Positions 45,599 to 51,283 of a DNA stretch of 64,000 nt are shown piece after piece; the stretch's first letter is position 1, and each line of letters starts with the position of its first letter. This DNA comes from Natrinema versiforme (lineage in GTDB: Archaea > Halobacteriota > Halobacteria > Halobacteriales > Natrialbaceae): positions 2,108,001-2,172,000 of the forward strand of contig NZ_CP040330.1 in assembly GCF_005576615.1 (NCBI RefSeq), read 5' to 3'. The notes below the pieces were generated by a model. The model searched no databases and was not told where the DNA came from. It saw only the letters and a program-made list of their open reading frames with translations. The position numbers and the translations under genes were made by a program.

Positions 45599-45651
45599 GC
45601 ACCGATATCGGGCAGCGAGGACCGATGCCGGCCGCTCGAGAGGGTAGTTAC

Positions 45652-45790
45652 ATGACGCAGACTCCGAAACGGCCATCGGAAAGAGCGACGAGCACACGAA
45701 AGTCGCGATCGACTGCCAGGGCGGCGGACGCTACACAGCGTTCACCGCGGGGGCGCTCCAGCGACTCCTTCCGGCGATGTTGGCCCGATA
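45652..45790 (+). pseudogene. Patatin-like phospholipase, N-terminal fragment
   Basis: In the frame through 45696 the sequence reads KVAIDCQGGGRYTAFTAGAL, the oxyanion-hole and first-helix motif of haloarchaeal patatin-like phospholipases, then ends without the GxSxG and Asp motifs. The likely start ATG at 45652 lies in another frame, so a frameshift separates the start from the motif. The match stops near 45790, where the fragment of a second gene begins on the other strand. Confidence 0.6.
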
Positions 45791-45799
45791 CCGGAGTCC

Positions 45800-45947
45800 C
45801 CTGCTCGGCCGCCGCGTCGACGGCGCCGGTCCGGTCAGCGTACCCCTGACTGCCGTCGGCCAGTATATTGCCGTTTCGGTGGCGCAGTCGCCAGCGGTGG
45901 TCGCCGCCCTTGTCCTCGTACTGTTCGAAAGCGCCTACTAAGTCCAC
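45800..45947 (-). pseudogene. YegP/DUF1508-like protein, N-terminal fragment
   Basis: From a GTG at 45947 the frame reads FEQYEDKGGDHRWRLRHRNG and NILADGSQGYADRTGAVDA, the DUF1508 (YegP/HVO_2922-like) strand pattern. About 45 residues match; from about 45800 the frame continues as unrelated Arg/Glu-rich shadow sequence over the patatin fragment. Only the first part of the domain repeat survives. Confidence 0.6.
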
Positions 45948-46055: not shown

Positions 46056-46150
46056 TAGTCACGGTCCACAATCAGACGGAAATCGATATAGCCATATATG
46101 ATTTACAAACTGTCGTACACCTTGAAGTGAAAAGGCGATAATGAATTACT

Positions 46151-47017
46151 ATGGGTGAGCGACTTCACGGACACGATTGGTTCAAGATCCGTGAGCAAGT
46201 ACTGGAACGTGATAACGGGAGTTGTCGAAACTGTGGGGAAGGAAGTAATTTAGTCGTCCACCATATCGTCCCCATTAGCGGTCAGGGAACGAATCAAGTG
46301 ACGAATTTGGTCACCCTTTGTCGGCCGTGTCATCGGTCCGCCCATAACCACCGATGGAAGGAAGAGAGTGATTCGTCACCGGAATCAACTTCACGGAAAA
46401 TTTTCTCTACAGAGGCAATTTCGACCGTTTGTAGGTCTACTCGGCATCCGCTTCATCTTGCTCTTATCGGTATTGTCGCAAAAACCGGAATCGGAGTTGG
46501 CGAGATATGCAACCTCGATCTCACGGACGTTGCTCTCGTCAAAAGTGATACTACAGACACCCTCCCGGAACTGTCCGGATCTGGCCTACAGATACGATAT
46601 GGTGGAGCAATCCCGTATAGCAATCGTCGTGAGAGAAAGGAACGCACCGTCATTCCGGCCGATTCCGAACTGGAAGACATCTTGCTGAGGTGGATAGCAA
46701 TTCGGCCGGATAATCCGCATACCGATGCCCTATTCGTTAAAACGAAGGAAAAATGGGGTGAGCGGATCGATCCATCCACAGTCCGATACGTATTTGAGAA
46801 AATAGGACGGGATCACGGGCTGTATTCCGAAAACAATGAGATGAAGAACTTAACCCCGGTTTCTTTGCGATACTTCTTCGAAGAACGATTTAATGGCCGT
46901 CCGGTCCATCGAAAGTACATCCTCGGTCAAGGAGCAGGTGCGGACATTGATTATCTATCGCTTGAAGACGATTACCGGAAAAACGTATTCAAAATATCTG
47001 ACCAGGGTTCGACGTGA
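46151..47017 (+). CDS. HNH endonuclease fused to a catalytically altered tyrosine recombinase domain
   Basis: A 288-residue fusion. Residues 14-66 are a complete HNH nuclease: Cys25/Cys28, VVHHIV (His37-38), Asn52, Cys57/Cys60 and His61. From about residue 95 the protein is clearly homologous to the neighbouring integrase (TRHPLHLALIGI, KTGIGVGEICNLDL, RWIAIRPD, KWGERID). Catalytic positions are changed: the first Arg is Gly115, the HxxR box is V237-x-x-R240, the third-box His is absent, and the nucleophilic Tyr position is Val/Phe (279-280). It lacks the usual core-binding domain, replaced by HNH. It is AT-rich relative to the genome. It overlaps the integrase gene tail to tail by 29 bases. 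Confidence 0.85.
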   Translation: MGERLHGHDWFKIREQVLERDNGSCRNCGEGSNLVVHHIVPISGQGTNQVTNLVTLCRPCHRSAHNHRWKEESDSSPESTSRKIFSTEAISTVCRSTRHPLHLALIGIVAKTGIGVGEICNLDLTDVALVKSDTTDTLPELSGSGLQIRYGGAIPYSNRRERKERTVIPADSELEDILLRWIAIRPDNPHTDALFVKTKEKWGERIDPSTVRYVFEKIGRDHGLYSENNEMKNLTPVSLRYFFEERFNGRPVHRKYILGQGAGADIDYLSLEDDYRKNVFKISDQGST

Positions 47018-48017
47018 GCGAGTAAATATTATCGAGATACGTCTCACGAACCCGATCCCCCCAGTTGTGGGTGTAGGTGTCGATGATATCGCTTGCAACG
47101 TCGCCACGGAGATACTTCACAACGCCACGATCGCCGGTCCGATCCCGTAGATGTGTTGTGAAGAAGTGCCGGAAGTAGTGGGGCGTCACATTCTCTGCCG
47201 CCCCGCCACCGGTTCGATACCACCCGTACTCAGTGGCGTACTGTTCGACGATGTGATGCACCATATCGATCGTAATCCGTTCTCCCCATCGGTCGACAGT
47301 CCCAGCGAACAGCGGATCGGTTTCGGAAACTGAATCAGGCCGAATCGCGAGCCAGCGAAGAAGTGCATTCTCGAGTTCGCTATCGACAGGAATGATAGTT
47401 TCACGTTTACGCTTGTTGGAGGCTGTTCGCACGGCTCCTTCCGATTCTTTTCCATACGAATGATCCGGCGAAATGTAGATCGAATTCGGTCCGGCGTCAA
47501 TTTGAGCTCGTGGATGCCAGTAGGCGGCTTCGTGATCGAGATTTAGATCGATTAGATCGAGGTTGCACAGCTCTCCAGACCGAATCCCCGTCTTCAATAA
47601 CGTCAATATAACCGCCCTATGAAGGGGATGACGGACGGTTGCGACGAAGTCGCGCATATCTGTGAGCTGAATGTCTCTGCGAGATGGATTCGACTCAATC
47701 GACTCGTTCATTTCCTCTAAAACGAGTTCCATTGGGTTCTCGTCGTGTCGTCCGACGCGAACGAGATATCCATAAAAGCGATTCAAGTACGATGCGTAAC
47801 TCGCGACCGTACTCTCTGCGTATTGTGAACGCAGCTCATGAGTGAAGGCCATACAATCCCGATAGCCGGCTTCTGTAGGCGTTTTTCCGAACCGATCGGA
47901 GAGGAACCCCTCAAAACGAGAAAGAACGCGTTGATACGCTGAAACTGTCCGTTTATTACGACCGTGTTGCTCGATATCCGCGAGGAAGTAGTCGATCGAC
48001 TCTGCTCGTTCACTCAT
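46989..48017 (-). CDS. Tyrosine recombinase (XerC/D-like integrase), intact
   Basis: A 342-residue integrase. The core-binding domain occupies residues about 5-95; the catalytic domain has R146 (KTGIRSGEL), Lys in the NKRKRET turn, H280-x-x-R283 (PHYFRHF), H317 (YTHNW) and Tyr327 (RETYL). All catalytic residues are present, so it should cut and rejoin DNA. The start overlaps the stop of the DUF5805-like gene by eight bases. Its codons are AT-richer than the flanking core genes. Confidence 0.93.
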   Translation of the reverse strand: MSERAESIDYFLADIEQHGRNKRTVSAYQRVLSRFEGFLSDRFGKTPTEAGYRDCMAFTHELRSQYAESTVASYASYLNRFYGYLVRVGRHDENPMELVLEEMNESIESNPSRRDIQLTDMRDFVATVRHPLHRAVILTLLKTGIRSGELCNLDLIDLNLDHEAAYWHPRAQIDAGPNSIYISPDHSYGKESEGAVRTASNKRKRETIIPVDSELENALLRWLAIRPDSVSETDPLFAGTVDRWGERITIDMVHHIVEQYATEYGWYRTGGGAAENVTPHYFRHFFTTHLRDRTGDRGVVKYLRGDVASDIIDTYTHNWGDRVRETYLDNIYSLTSNPGQIF

Positions 48018-48399
48018 TGCTGGTCCGAACGTATCCTCCCTTACGACCACTGTATCGAACGAGATTGTCGTCTTGAAGCTGTCCTAACGCCGTGTCTACG
48101 TCCTCTTCTATATCGTCAATGAGTCTGTCAACGAGTTCGTCCCAATCCAAGACGCCTTCCCGCTCGAGTAGAGCGAGAATTCGATCCTGAAAGCCGTCGT
48201 CATTCGACTCCGTTGACTCCTCAGCATTGGAAACCAGGTTGTCCATTGAGGGGATACCGAAATCACTGCGGCCGGCTTGAACCATCGTTCGGACGAACTC
48301 GCTCTGGCTCATCTCGAGTTCGTCAGCGTGTTCAGCCCACTTCTCCTTCTGATACTGCGGGACGTAGGTTTTCACGGCAGTTCGATCATCGGAAGCCAT
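48010..48399 (-). CDS. DUF5805-like protein, partner of the integrase
   Basis: A 129-residue protein. The N-terminal third (TAVKTYVPQYQKEKWAEHADE, then MSQSEFVRTMVQAG) resembles a ribbon-helix-helix DNA-binding unit; the C-terminal half (DRILALLEREGVLDWDELV, then LGQLQDDNLVRYSGRKGGYV) looks like a winged helix. DUF5805 is my recollection for this integrase-associated family. It is coupled to the integrase and may act as its regulator or directionality factor. Confidence 0.75.
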   Translation of the reverse strand: MASDDRTAVKTYVPQYQKEKWAEHADELEMSQSEFVRTMVQAGRSDFGIPSMDNLVSNAEESTESNDDGFQDRILALLEREGVLDWDELVDRLIDDIEEDVDTALGQLQDDNLVRYSGRKGGYVRTSNE

Positions 48400-48441: not shown

Positions 48442-48488
48442 TCACAAATAAGGGTATTTATTTGGTACCGTAGTGCCACAGATGGCAC
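48442..48488. promoter_or_regulatory. Palindromes in the promoter of the DUF5805-integrase operon
   Basis: CAAATAA (48445-48451) is inverted as TTATTTG (48458-48464), and GTGCCA (48473-48478) is inverted as TGGCAC (48483-48488). A TCACAAATAA at 48442 recurs directly at 48547. The operon starts at 48399, so these sit 40-90 bases upstream, fitting autoregulation by the ribbon-helix-helix-like protein. Confidence 0.55.
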
Positions 48489-48654
48489 AATATGAATATA
48501 TTATTTGTTATCGCGGCCCCATAGTTGCTACCGAATAGTACTGCCATCACAAATAAATATATGAGTGTCACCGGGAGTAGCTCAAGCCGAAAGATAGGCG
48601 ATTGGAGACAAGAATTGTCACAGAAATTATAATCCGTTCCGAAAGCGTTACCCC

Positions 48655-48857
48655 CAGGGTGACGACCTCGAGACACGGGTCCTCGAATTGCTGGAATCCG
48701 ATCCGTACTCTGGGAGGAACTCCTCGAGGCGGTCTCGGACGACATCGAGTCGCGATTGGACGAGACGCTCGAGGATCTCCAGTCGGCAAACCGGATTCGA
48801 TACAGCGGTCGCCACGGCGGGTACACGACGATCGACGGTGGTGGCGATGGCGACTGA
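48655..48857 (+). pseudogene. DUF5805-like gene remnant, second copy
   Basis: From 48661 the frame reads DDLETRVLELLESDPYS, then a one-base shift near 48706-48711, then WEELLEAVSDDIESRLDE and RIRYSGRHGGYTT to the stop at 48857. This matches the C-terminal half of the intact protein at 48010-48399. The N-terminal DNA-binding half is missing. Confidence 0.8.
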
Positions 48858-49898
48858 ATCCGGGACCGACACCCCGGAGGACGTGACCGACCCATCGAGT
48901 ACTTCCTCGACGACCAGCGCTATCACGGCAAGAGCGACCGCACGCTCGAGGCCTACGAACGGGTGCTCCGGCAGTTCGAGGCCTTCGTCCGCGAGCGCTT
49001 CGACGCGGACGCGGTCGGTGCGGCCGAGCGACGGGAGTGTATGGCCTGGATTCACTCGCTGCGCGGCGAGTTCGAGTCGAGTACGATCGCGAGCTACGCG
49101 TCCTATCTCAACCGATTCTACGACTACATGACCCGCGTCGGTGTCTTCGATGCCAACCCGATGGCGCTCGTCATGGAGGAGATGTCCGAATCGATCGATA
49201 CCAACCCGACGAGACGGGATCTCTCCGTCGGCGAAATGCGGTCGTTCCTCGGTTCGATCGACCATCCCCTCGAGCGGGCCGTTATCGTTACCCTCCTGAA
49301 GACGGGAATGCGCGTCGGAGAGCTGTGTAACCTCGATCTGCGGGATCTCCATCTCGAGTCCGTGCAGGCGGAACTCGACTGCGAGTGGTCTCCGCGCGTC
49401 GGACTCGAGCGCCGGCCGTCGTCGCTGTTCGTTTCCTCCGAGCCGACCCGCGGGACGGCCGTCAACGGCGAGGAACGGACGGCCTCGAACAAGCGAAAGC
49501 GGGACACGGTCGTCCCCGTCGACGCCGAACTACAGCGGGCGCTACTCGAGTGGCTGGCGATCCGTCCGGACGCGATTTCGACGGCGCGGCCGCTCTTTCT
49601 CGATACCAGAGACTCGTGGGGTGAACGGCTCGAGCCGTCGGACGTCCGCTATATCGTCGAAAAACACGCTCGTGACTACGGCTGGTACCGGACCGGTGGC
49701 GGGACCCAAGAGAACGTCACCCCCCACTACTTCCGGCACTTCTTCACCACGCACCTGCGGGATCGGACCGGCGACCGGGGGATCGTCCAGTACCTCCGCG
49801 GCGACGTCGCCGGCGACGTGATCGATACCTATACCCACAACTGGGGCGACCGCGTTCGCGAGACCTACCTCGAGAACATCTACGCTATCACCGAGTAG
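48847..49898 (+). pseudogene. Tyrosine recombinase, second copy, frameshifted at its N-terminus
   Basis: ATG 48847 overlaps the DUF5805 remnant as in the intact cassette, but the frame is broken near 48891: the start frame reads ESGTDTPEDVTDP and the integrase continues as IEYFLDDQRYHGKSDRTLE in another frame. From there it is open to 49898 with all catalytic residues (KTGMRVGEL, PHYFRHF, YTHNW, RETYL). A shorter product from GTG 48963 would lack part of the core-binding domain. Base composition is GC-rich, unlike the intact copy. Confidence 0.85.
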
Positions 49899-50341
49899 GG
49901 GAATCAGTCCCGCTGGTTCTCACTGTCGGCGACCCGAGTCACGGTTGGGGCTGCAGACGGGCGATTTCGGCTGTCCGACGCATATTACTGTAGATATTTA
50001 CTACAAGTATCCGTAACCGGCGCGCTCGAGACAGTACAGATAAATTTCATACCGCTATATCGACTTCGCCCCCGAATGGTGAACGCGATCGGTCGTCGAC
50101 ACCGTCGAAGGAACCGTCCGCTGCATCGGTGTCGACATCGATAGCGAAGTGAGTCCCCGGAAGCGGAACGTTCTCCAGTCACGACCGTAGCAGGGGTGAG
50201 ACCGTGGATTCTCAACCAACGACGGAGCAGTACGGCGAGGTGGGCCGGCAGTACCGACTTCGGCTACCGTAGACTCTCCCTTCGGTCAGTTCGACGGAGC
50301 GACCGGCAGAAAGCGGCATCGACGATCCGAAAGAACGCAGG
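49899..50341. other. Intergenic region right of the integrase copies
   Basis: No supported gene in 440 bases. An AT-rich island is present at about 49982-50065 (tattactgtagatatttacta). Short frames such as VDTVEGTVRC (about 50095-50130) and DSQPTTEQYGEVGRQYRL (from 50200) look like scraps of older genes but were not identified. It may contain the right edge of an integrated element. Confidence 0.4.
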
Positions 50342-51283
50342 TTACGGCTCGACGGCGAGTTCCGTCTCGAGGTCGCCCCCGTTCAACAGGGAGCGAACGA
50401 GATCGACCGTCTCGGTGGTTTCGGCCGTGTTTTCGAGCAACACGGTCTCACTCGGAAAGAGCTGTTCGCCGAGCAGGAGCCCGTGATCGCGAGCCGTCGA
50501 GCCGGTGACGGTCAGATAGACGCCGAGCCCCGCGTCGGCGATGGCCGCCTCCTCCTCGCGGCCCTCCTCGGGGTAGCGAAAGTCGACGCCGTCGAGCGTC
50601 CGCGTGCCGAGGACCGCCTGCACGAGCCGTTCGTATCTGGGTTCGATGCAGAGCGGCCCCTCGTAGGCCTCGAGGAAGTCCCGGTCGAGCGATTCCGATG
50701 ACGGAGCGACCTCGGGCGACGCTAACAGCGTGTGGTAGACCGTATCGCCGAGGCCGGTGACGACCTGGACATCGGTATCGGAGGGATTGATCCGGGCGTT
50801 TACGTCGGCGATCCGGTTGAGCGGCTCCGGCCGGAGTTCGACGACTTCCTCGAGGACCAGATCGGCGCTGTCGAACCCGAGCGCGAACTCGTGGGTCCGA
50901 AGGGAACGGAACGGCTCCTCGCGGCCGACGAGTTGGATCGCCGTGTCGTCGGGTACACCCTCGATATTCGTCAGCGGGATCGTGACGCTGTCGAAGACGA
51001 TCCGGCGGGGCTTCCCGGCGCGGTCGTCCCGCAACAGCGTGTATTCGGGTTCGGTCGGATCGTCCACGGCGCTGTAGTCGGCGAGACGATGGTAGACGTC
51101 CTCCTCGTCGGGATCGATCGACCCCTTCGTGAGTGCCTTTTCGTGGCGGAGCGTCGACGTAATGTCGTCCGCGAGGTCGGGGACATCGAGGCGATCCGCG
51201 AGCCGGTCGAGAACCGACTCGAGGGGTCGCCCCTTGCGTGGAACAGCGATCGGTATCGTCTCGCCCATCGATCGGTTCTCCAT
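50342..51283 (-). CDS. HisG-like (ATP phosphoribosyltransferase-related) protein
   Basis: A 313-residue protein. The start IPIAVPRKGRPLESVLDRL resembles the opening of HisG (IAVPNKGRL), and the end has VYLTVTGSTARDHGLLLGEQL, like the GNTLRANGL loop. The middle differs from true HisG and lacks a clear PRPP loop, so catalysis is doubtful. The start may be ATG 51268. It is upstream of nothing obviously histidine-related. Confidence 0.6.
   Translation of the reverse strand: MENRSMGETIPIAVPRKGRPLESVLDRLADRLDVPDLADDITSTLRHEKALTKGSIDPDEEDVYHRLADYSAVDDPTEPEYTLLRDDRAGKPRRIVFDSVTIPLTNIEGVPDDTAIQLVGREEPFRSLRTHEFALGFDSADLVLEEVVELRPEPLNRIADVNARINPSDTDVQVVTGLGDTVYHTLLASPEVAPSSESLDRDFLEAYEGPLCIEPRYERLVQAVLGTRTLDGVDFRYPEEGREEEAAIADAGLGVYLTVTGSTARDHGLLLGEQLFPSETVLLENTAETTETVDLVRSLLNGGDLETELAVEP

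Follow-up and report, generated by a model that had tools for sequence, protein, structure and literature searches.

Organisation of the locus

We analysed a 64,000-nt stretch of the Natrinema versiforme genome (contig NZ_CP040330.1, positions 2,108,001 to 2,172,000), referred to here as the window; coordinates below are those of the window. One of its ORFs, for which the initial annotation had given the correct start, stop and length, encodes a 288-aa protein, HNHint, in which an HNH domain is fused to a catalytically dead tyrosine recombinase. The features of the locus are as follows.

46087..46106, minus strand: S1, a motif with consensus ATAAAYYnTATnnnGCTATA, inverted, ~45 bp upstream of the fusion
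46151..47017, plus strand: HNHint, HNH-dead tyrosine recombinase fusion, 288 aa (ORF, Pfam HNH and Phage_integrase, orthologous fusions, structure model)
46172..46348, plus strand: HNH nuclease domain, residues 8-66 (Pfam, alignment A2, model)
46394..46996, plus strand: degenerate tyrosine-recombinase catalytic domain, residues 82-282 (alignments, structure matches, dN/dS 0.11)
46989..48050, minus strand: intA, tyrosine recombinase with core-binding domain (ORF, Pfam, alignment)
48010..48399, minus strand: DUF5805-1, with an RHH-like N-terminus, as judged from sequence, and a DUF5805 domain (PF19121, E 3e-25)
48443..48465, no strand: inverted repeat CACAAATAA/TTATTTGG with arms 6 bp apart, located upstream of DUF5805-1 and conserved among cassette loci
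48632..48856, plus strand: remnant of the resident DUF5805-2, C-terminal half only, frameshifted in the window
48647..48663, no strand: ACCCYGGGGGT-like palindrome at the truncation point, with one half inverted in the window
48839..49898, plus strand: intB, the resident near-universal haloarchaeal integrase, with an N-terminal frameshift at ~48891 (ORF 48963-49898)
50040..50059, plus strand: S4, matching S1, downstream of intB and head-to-head with S1

The intA gene is convergent with HNHint, overlapping it by 29 bp, and has DUF5805-1 as its operon partner. The integrase of the DUF5805-integrase operon is present in 386 of 391 Halobacteria genomes. We considered intB as the XerA equivalent and rejected this assignment, since another recombinase of the genome scores 154.6 bits against ~60 bits for each intB piece; neither of the two reaches the XerA profile cut-off. 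The GC content of the fusion (0.49) and of intA (0.52) is below that of intB (0.64) and of the window (0.65), which suggests that the AT-rich genes were acquired. By eye, the raw sequence between a bPH2 gene and the fusion (45650-45945) contains a possible remnant of a patatin-like gene.

Domains, recurrence and selection of the fusion

Residues 25-66 of HNHint match Pfam HNH (E 7.8e-10); the score against PF01844 is 39.2 bits, with a cut-off of 21.4, and the CxxC...HH...N...CxxCH...H motif is present, so the full HNH motif seen in the initial annotation is real. Residues 98-240 match Pfam Phage_integrase (E 1.9e-6), and this half of the protein is 34% identical to intA and 33% identical to intB, as expected if it is homologous to the neighbouring integrase. 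Pfam detects no SAM-like core-binding domain in HNHint, whereas intA has one, which supports the earlier proposal that HNH has taken the place of this domain. Alignment with intA and intB likewise bears out the catalytic losses proposed before: Arg-I is replaced by Gly115 (TGMR in intA and intB, TGIG in HNHint), the His of HxxR by Val (HYFR to VSLR), and the YTHNWG stretch that houses the Tyr nucleophile is deleted. Arg-II (R240) is kept, and the fusions show no conservation of the catalytic Lys; HNHint does not have the R-K-H-R-(H/W)-Y set of an active tyrosine recombinase. The third-box His is also absent, as had been noted, but this position is Asp in intA and intB as well (LRGD for LGH; most tyrosine recombinases have His), so its loss is not peculiar to HNHint.

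The AlphaFold model of HNHint has a mean pLDDT of 82.5 and a disordered linker at residues 68-80. The structure matches of the second half are tyrosine-recombinase catalytic domains, the best being the archaeal Xer 4a8e (Z 20.9, rmsd 2.1, 172 aligned), so the predicted structure agrees with the fold assigned from the sequence. The dead-recombinase repressors MrpR/YopR and SroF also match the model (Z 12-15). MrpR (YopR) of Bacillus phage SPbeta is a dead tyrosine recombinase that acts as a DNA-binding repressor (PMC10516654). Like HNHint, MrpR and SroF (phi3T) have the recombinase fold with its catalytic residues lost. MrpR differs in keeping the core-binding domain and in having no nuclease, where HNHint has HNH; moreover, DNA binding is shown for MrpR and presumed for HNHint. 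MrpR is a direct precedent for the use of a dead recombinase fold in DNA binding.

The fusion occurs in at least 16 haloarchaeal genomes of several families, a lower bound because the search of the class took no more than six candidates from each genome. Nine copies, including that of the window, are intact and seven are damaged (G030, G057, G249, G330, G335, G369 and Halorussus ruber). The full-length relatives are 33-77% identical to HNHint and come from G019 (Natrinema hispanicum), G026, G044, G073, G092, G027 (N. salsiterrestre), G039 (Salinadaptatus halalkaliphilus) and G113; recurrence at these identities argues against a chance ORF or a one-off artefact. The recombinase halves of ten fusions form a single clade with support 100/100, indicating that the fusion has one origin. 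In A2, an alignment of eight full-length members, the HNH residues C25, C28, H37, H38, N52, C57, C60, H61 and H65 are invariant. At the Arg-I position A2 always has Gly, and at the His-II position V, Y, N or T; catalytic recombinase positions other than Arg-II are lost or unconserved across the fusions, and the G113 fusion has lost Arg-II too. The initial annotation had allowed that relatives might keep the catalytic residues; instead, every member is recombinase-dead, and the sequences indicate that the ancestor from which all known copies descend had already lost this activity.

In the closest pair, the window and G019, the whole fusion has a dN/dS of 0.14, with 0.26 in the HNH part and 0.11 in the recombinase half; intA, in the same pair, has 0.05. 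Between intact fusion copies dN/dS ranges from 0.09 to 0.19. We conclude that the fusion has been selected as a protein, recombinase half included. The initial annotation had named confinement to this genome together with decay in close relatives as grounds against its reading. Overall these grounds fail, the gene being recurrent, of one origin and under purifying selection. About seven of the 16 copies are damaged, which indicates that the gene is dispensable. Outside the order, none of 101 sampled genomes of the phylum had a match reaching E 1e-25. No phage or plasmid record covered 80% of the fusion, and viral contigs gave two matches only, both to the HNH region. In fusion-free genomes, no significant fusion remnant was found in the ~1-kb slot upstream of DUF5805 (best profile E 0.95; tblastn from E 0.16).

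The initial annotation had asked whether the fusion recurs beside integrases in other haloarchaea, and 13 of the 16 copies do adjoin a DUF5805-integrase operon. Seven lie upstream of the operon in the same direction (G073, G092, G039, G057, G030, G335 and G369), and six are convergent with a second pair, DUF5805-1/intA, which adjoins the resident DUF5805-2/intB (window, G019, G026, G044, G330 and Halorussus). No integrase adjoins the copies in G113, G027 and G249, where it is found elsewhere in the genome. The G027 copy lies within a provirus-like region and the G249 copy stands alone. The G113 fusion and a DUF5805 gene overlap and lie between apparent sdhB and sdhA genes. Besides DUF5805-HNHint, this sdhB-sdhA gap (L082, 7176-13596) contains one more ORF and a small HNH gene. 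There are no tRNA genes near seven fusion loci.

Damage and DNA sites at the resident operon

Two DUF5805-integrase pairs lie side by side in seven loci, namely the six with a convergent fusion and one, G005, that is fusion-free. The resident DUF5805-2 retains only its C-terminal half in all seven, starting at about codon 72-76. Its partner intB is damaged in five (window, G044, G330, G005 and Halorussus) and whole in G019 and G026. Among 74 loci treated as single-integrase loci, by contrast, DUF5805 is intact in every one and the integrase in 73, the exception (L096) having an open 388-aa frame. The difference in integrase damage gives a Fisher p of ~5e-6, uncorrected for shared ancestry. A further genome, G043, is fusion-free and retains only intA and a short stretch of the former junction. 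The resident damage in G005 and G043 is the same, so that state can persist in the absence of the fusion. Two other accounts of these loci were rejected. For an integrative-element model, tblastn did not detect the 5′ half of DUF5805-2 on the far flank, where it would have been left, and an invertible promoter switch between DUF5805-1 and DUF5805-2 has no specific support, the N-terminal halves being generally conserved.

The truncation of DUF5805-2 lies no more than ~25 bp from GACCCTGGGGGTAACGGCCTCGA. This DNA site reads ACCCTGGGGGTAACG in a cassette-free DUF5805 gene, and ACCCYGGGGGTAACG inside DUF5805 genes (e.g. L088 and L109) is conserved at the DNA level beyond what the protein accounts for. 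The Pro codon at the site is CCT in 27 of 62 DUF5805 genes, against a background of 5%, and the palindrome ACCCCnGGGGT persists despite a shift of reading frame (P-G-G vs P-G-V). Cassette-free DUF5805 genes keep the palindrome; the intA-linked DUF5805-1 copies are without the GACCCTGGGGGTAACGGCCTCGA site. The site may be an operator, or one at which a nuclease cuts or a recombinase acts. The inverted repeat upstream of DUF5805-1, which can also be written CACAAATAA-N6-TTATTTGTG, may similarly be a recombinase core site or a DUF5805 operator. Other DUF5805 genes have an inverted repeat with a 6-bp spacer ~60 bp upstream, with arms that vary by lineage and are still partly palindromic.

S1 and S4 belong to a motif of 20-26 bp, in its longer form with consensus ATAAAYYnTATnTCGCTATAYCnAAT, whose copies stand head-to-head around the DUF5805-integrase operon (74 loci among L039-L155). 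Downstream of the operon we counted 36 copies on the plus strand and none on the minus strand (0.06 expected for plus); upstream, 27 lie on the minus strand and five on the plus strand (0.22 expected for minus); within the operon genes there are none. The pattern came from some of the counted loci, which makes the counts, though not the orientation rule, partly circular. Several fusions have S1 45-200 bp upstream of them. The neighbour gene (50342-51283 in the window) is found in two states only, upstream on the same strand (13 loci) or downstream and convergent (11 loci). These are the states expected from inversion of the segment, and they are independent of the motif counts. From this arrangement we infer that, over evolutionary time, the segment containing the operon and the enclosed fusion inverts. 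The S1/S4 motifs are likely recombinase sites, and the near-universal DUF5805-integrase operon is probably a self-inverting integrase locus.

Elsewhere in six genomes we observed ~15 pairs of the motif in minus-plus order, 0.7-6 kb apart, and none in plus-minus order; these genome-wide scans are pattern searches, for which a reversed-pattern control gave 0-1 matches per strand per genome. The pairs in G000 (L169-L173) are at C2:849509/850711, 1482640/1483609, 3012227/3013170 and 3674283/3675197, and at C4:70798/72834. Inside or next to the paired segments are a RIO2-like kinase, an orc1/cdc6 neighbourhood and a further tyrosine recombinase (gene names assigned by eye). The pairs may represent a genome-wide family of invertible segments.

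A putative guided nuclease and its alternatives

We reasoned that a fusion of single origin beside a related, working recombinase probably uses its disabled half to steer the cutter to the sites of that recombinase. HNHint is, in our judgement, probably a sequence-guided DNA nuclease, a reading supported by its fold, its residue retention, its linkage and the MrpR precedent; its DNA binding, target and cleavage, and any causal role in replacement, are inferred. The C-terminal half would derive from a tyrosine recombinase of the DUF5805-integrase kind that lost strand-exchange chemistry and would have kept the DNA-binding clamp. Having replaced the core-binding domain, HNH should occupy the position on DNA that this domain would otherwise wrap. 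From there it would make nicks or cuts in or close to the sites of the recombinase itself, either the S1/S4 motif or the conserved site in DUF5805. This core mechanism, with targeting linked to the locus, we rate at slightly less than an even chance. In the lineage of the window, a small cassette of HNHint, intA and DUF5805-1 would have come to lie at the resident DUF5805-intB operon, accompanying its inactivation, which is the behaviour expected of a nuclease that is selfish or serves exclusion and brings a replacement recombinase with it. A role of HNHint in replacing the resident integrase is possible and, on balance, doubtful; the data nevertheless point to it as a third role, beyond the defence or regulation first suggested.

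Retention of the HNH residues in intact members favours the guided nuclease. Truncation of DUF5805 in all seven two-pair loci, set against single-integrase loci that are essentially all intact, favours both the nuclease and the replacement. Against them stand the occurrence of the S1/S4 sites and of the DUF5805 site in fusion-free genomes, the fusion copies away from an integrase, the ~7 broken copies, the damage in G005 and G043, and the loss of Arg-II in G113. Isolated recombinase catalytic domains that lack a core-binding domain are, in addition, expected to bind DNA weakly.

Regulation is an unlikely alternative that keeps some force. The dead recombinase domain would compete or co-assemble with intA or intB at their sites and repress or bias recombination, with HNH as a DNA-binding or occasionally nicking part. 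The resemblance of the model to the repressors MrpR and SroF, the linkage to an integrase in 13 of 16 copies and the G113 operon, in which DUF5805 overlaps the fusion as it does the integrase elsewhere, are consistent with this. However, a pure regulator would not need the catalytic and zinc residues of HNH, all of which are kept, and most genomes with the same integrase are without the fusion, and some copies lie away from any integrase.

We give little credence to a stronger form of the replacement, in which the nuclease breaks the resident recombinase locus at the conserved DNA site and supplies a diverged DUF5805-integrase pair. As the replacement pair is without the conserved site, the resident would be the target and the replacement immune. 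A defence nuclease that cuts incoming elements carrying the attachment sites of this recombinase family appears just as improbable. The fusion is patchily distributed, often decayed and low in GC (0.49, where the window has 0.65); these traits and the nuclease domain would suit such a function, as would the copy in a provirus-like region, where genes of defence or inter-element competition can be found. Nonetheless, the PADLOC match covers only the generic HNH region (best E 3e-6) with no full-length system match, no recognised defence genes lie beside the fusion, and the presumed sites are present in the host itself.

A shade less probable again is that HNHint is a free-standing homing endonuclease whose specificity comes from a captured recombinase domain and whose only role is its own spread. 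HNH homing nucleases usually have their HNH at one terminus and bind DNA through a module at the opposite one (PMC10448857). Free-standing examples (e.g. HNH with AP2) resemble HNHint in having two domains at opposite ends and in their patchy, decaying copies; the second domain of HNHint, presumed to recognise DNA, differs in being a tyrosine-recombinase catalytic domain. Variable locations, including the one between apparent sdhB and sdhA in G113, and the many degenerate copies fit homing, whereas the long-term linkage to DUF5805-integrase and the strong constraint on the recombinase half do not, and no clean pair of occupied and empty alleles was found. Cassette loci do truncate DUF5805 at the site kept in cassette-free genes, but the tandem copies lie elsewhere. 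That the fusion is a functionless, decaying by-product hitch-hiking with intA, as the broken copies might suggest, is very improbable given the low dN/dS between intact copies and the persistence of both the HNH motif and the recombinase fold at 33-50% identity.

HNHint is best described as a putative HNH nuclease of modular build whose recognition module is of an undescribed type. Its recombinase half is homologous to archaeal XerA and the DUF5805-associated integrases, and differs from them in having no Arg-I, conserved Lys, His-II, Tyr or core-binding domain. Its HNH half recalls IscB and Cas9, scoring 63.3 bits against NCBIfam IscB (NF040563) over residues 11-136 only; this is below the 175-bit cut-off and centred on the HNH region, and no RuvC domain was found. 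A survey of archaeal tyrosine recombinases lists 17 major families, with no mention of HNH (PMC8371274). In line with the initial annotation, which knew of no such system, we found no published description of an HNH-tyrosine recombinase architecture in the open-access literature, represented mostly by titles and abstracts, and no open-access paper on DUF5805. If HNHint is a guided nuclease, evolution would have recruited a recombinase as the half of a nuclease that finds the target, and HNH nucleases would gain a new DNA-recognition scaffold. The fusion would then offer a handle on the replacement and control of a near-universal, apparently unstudied haloarchaeal recombinase locus.
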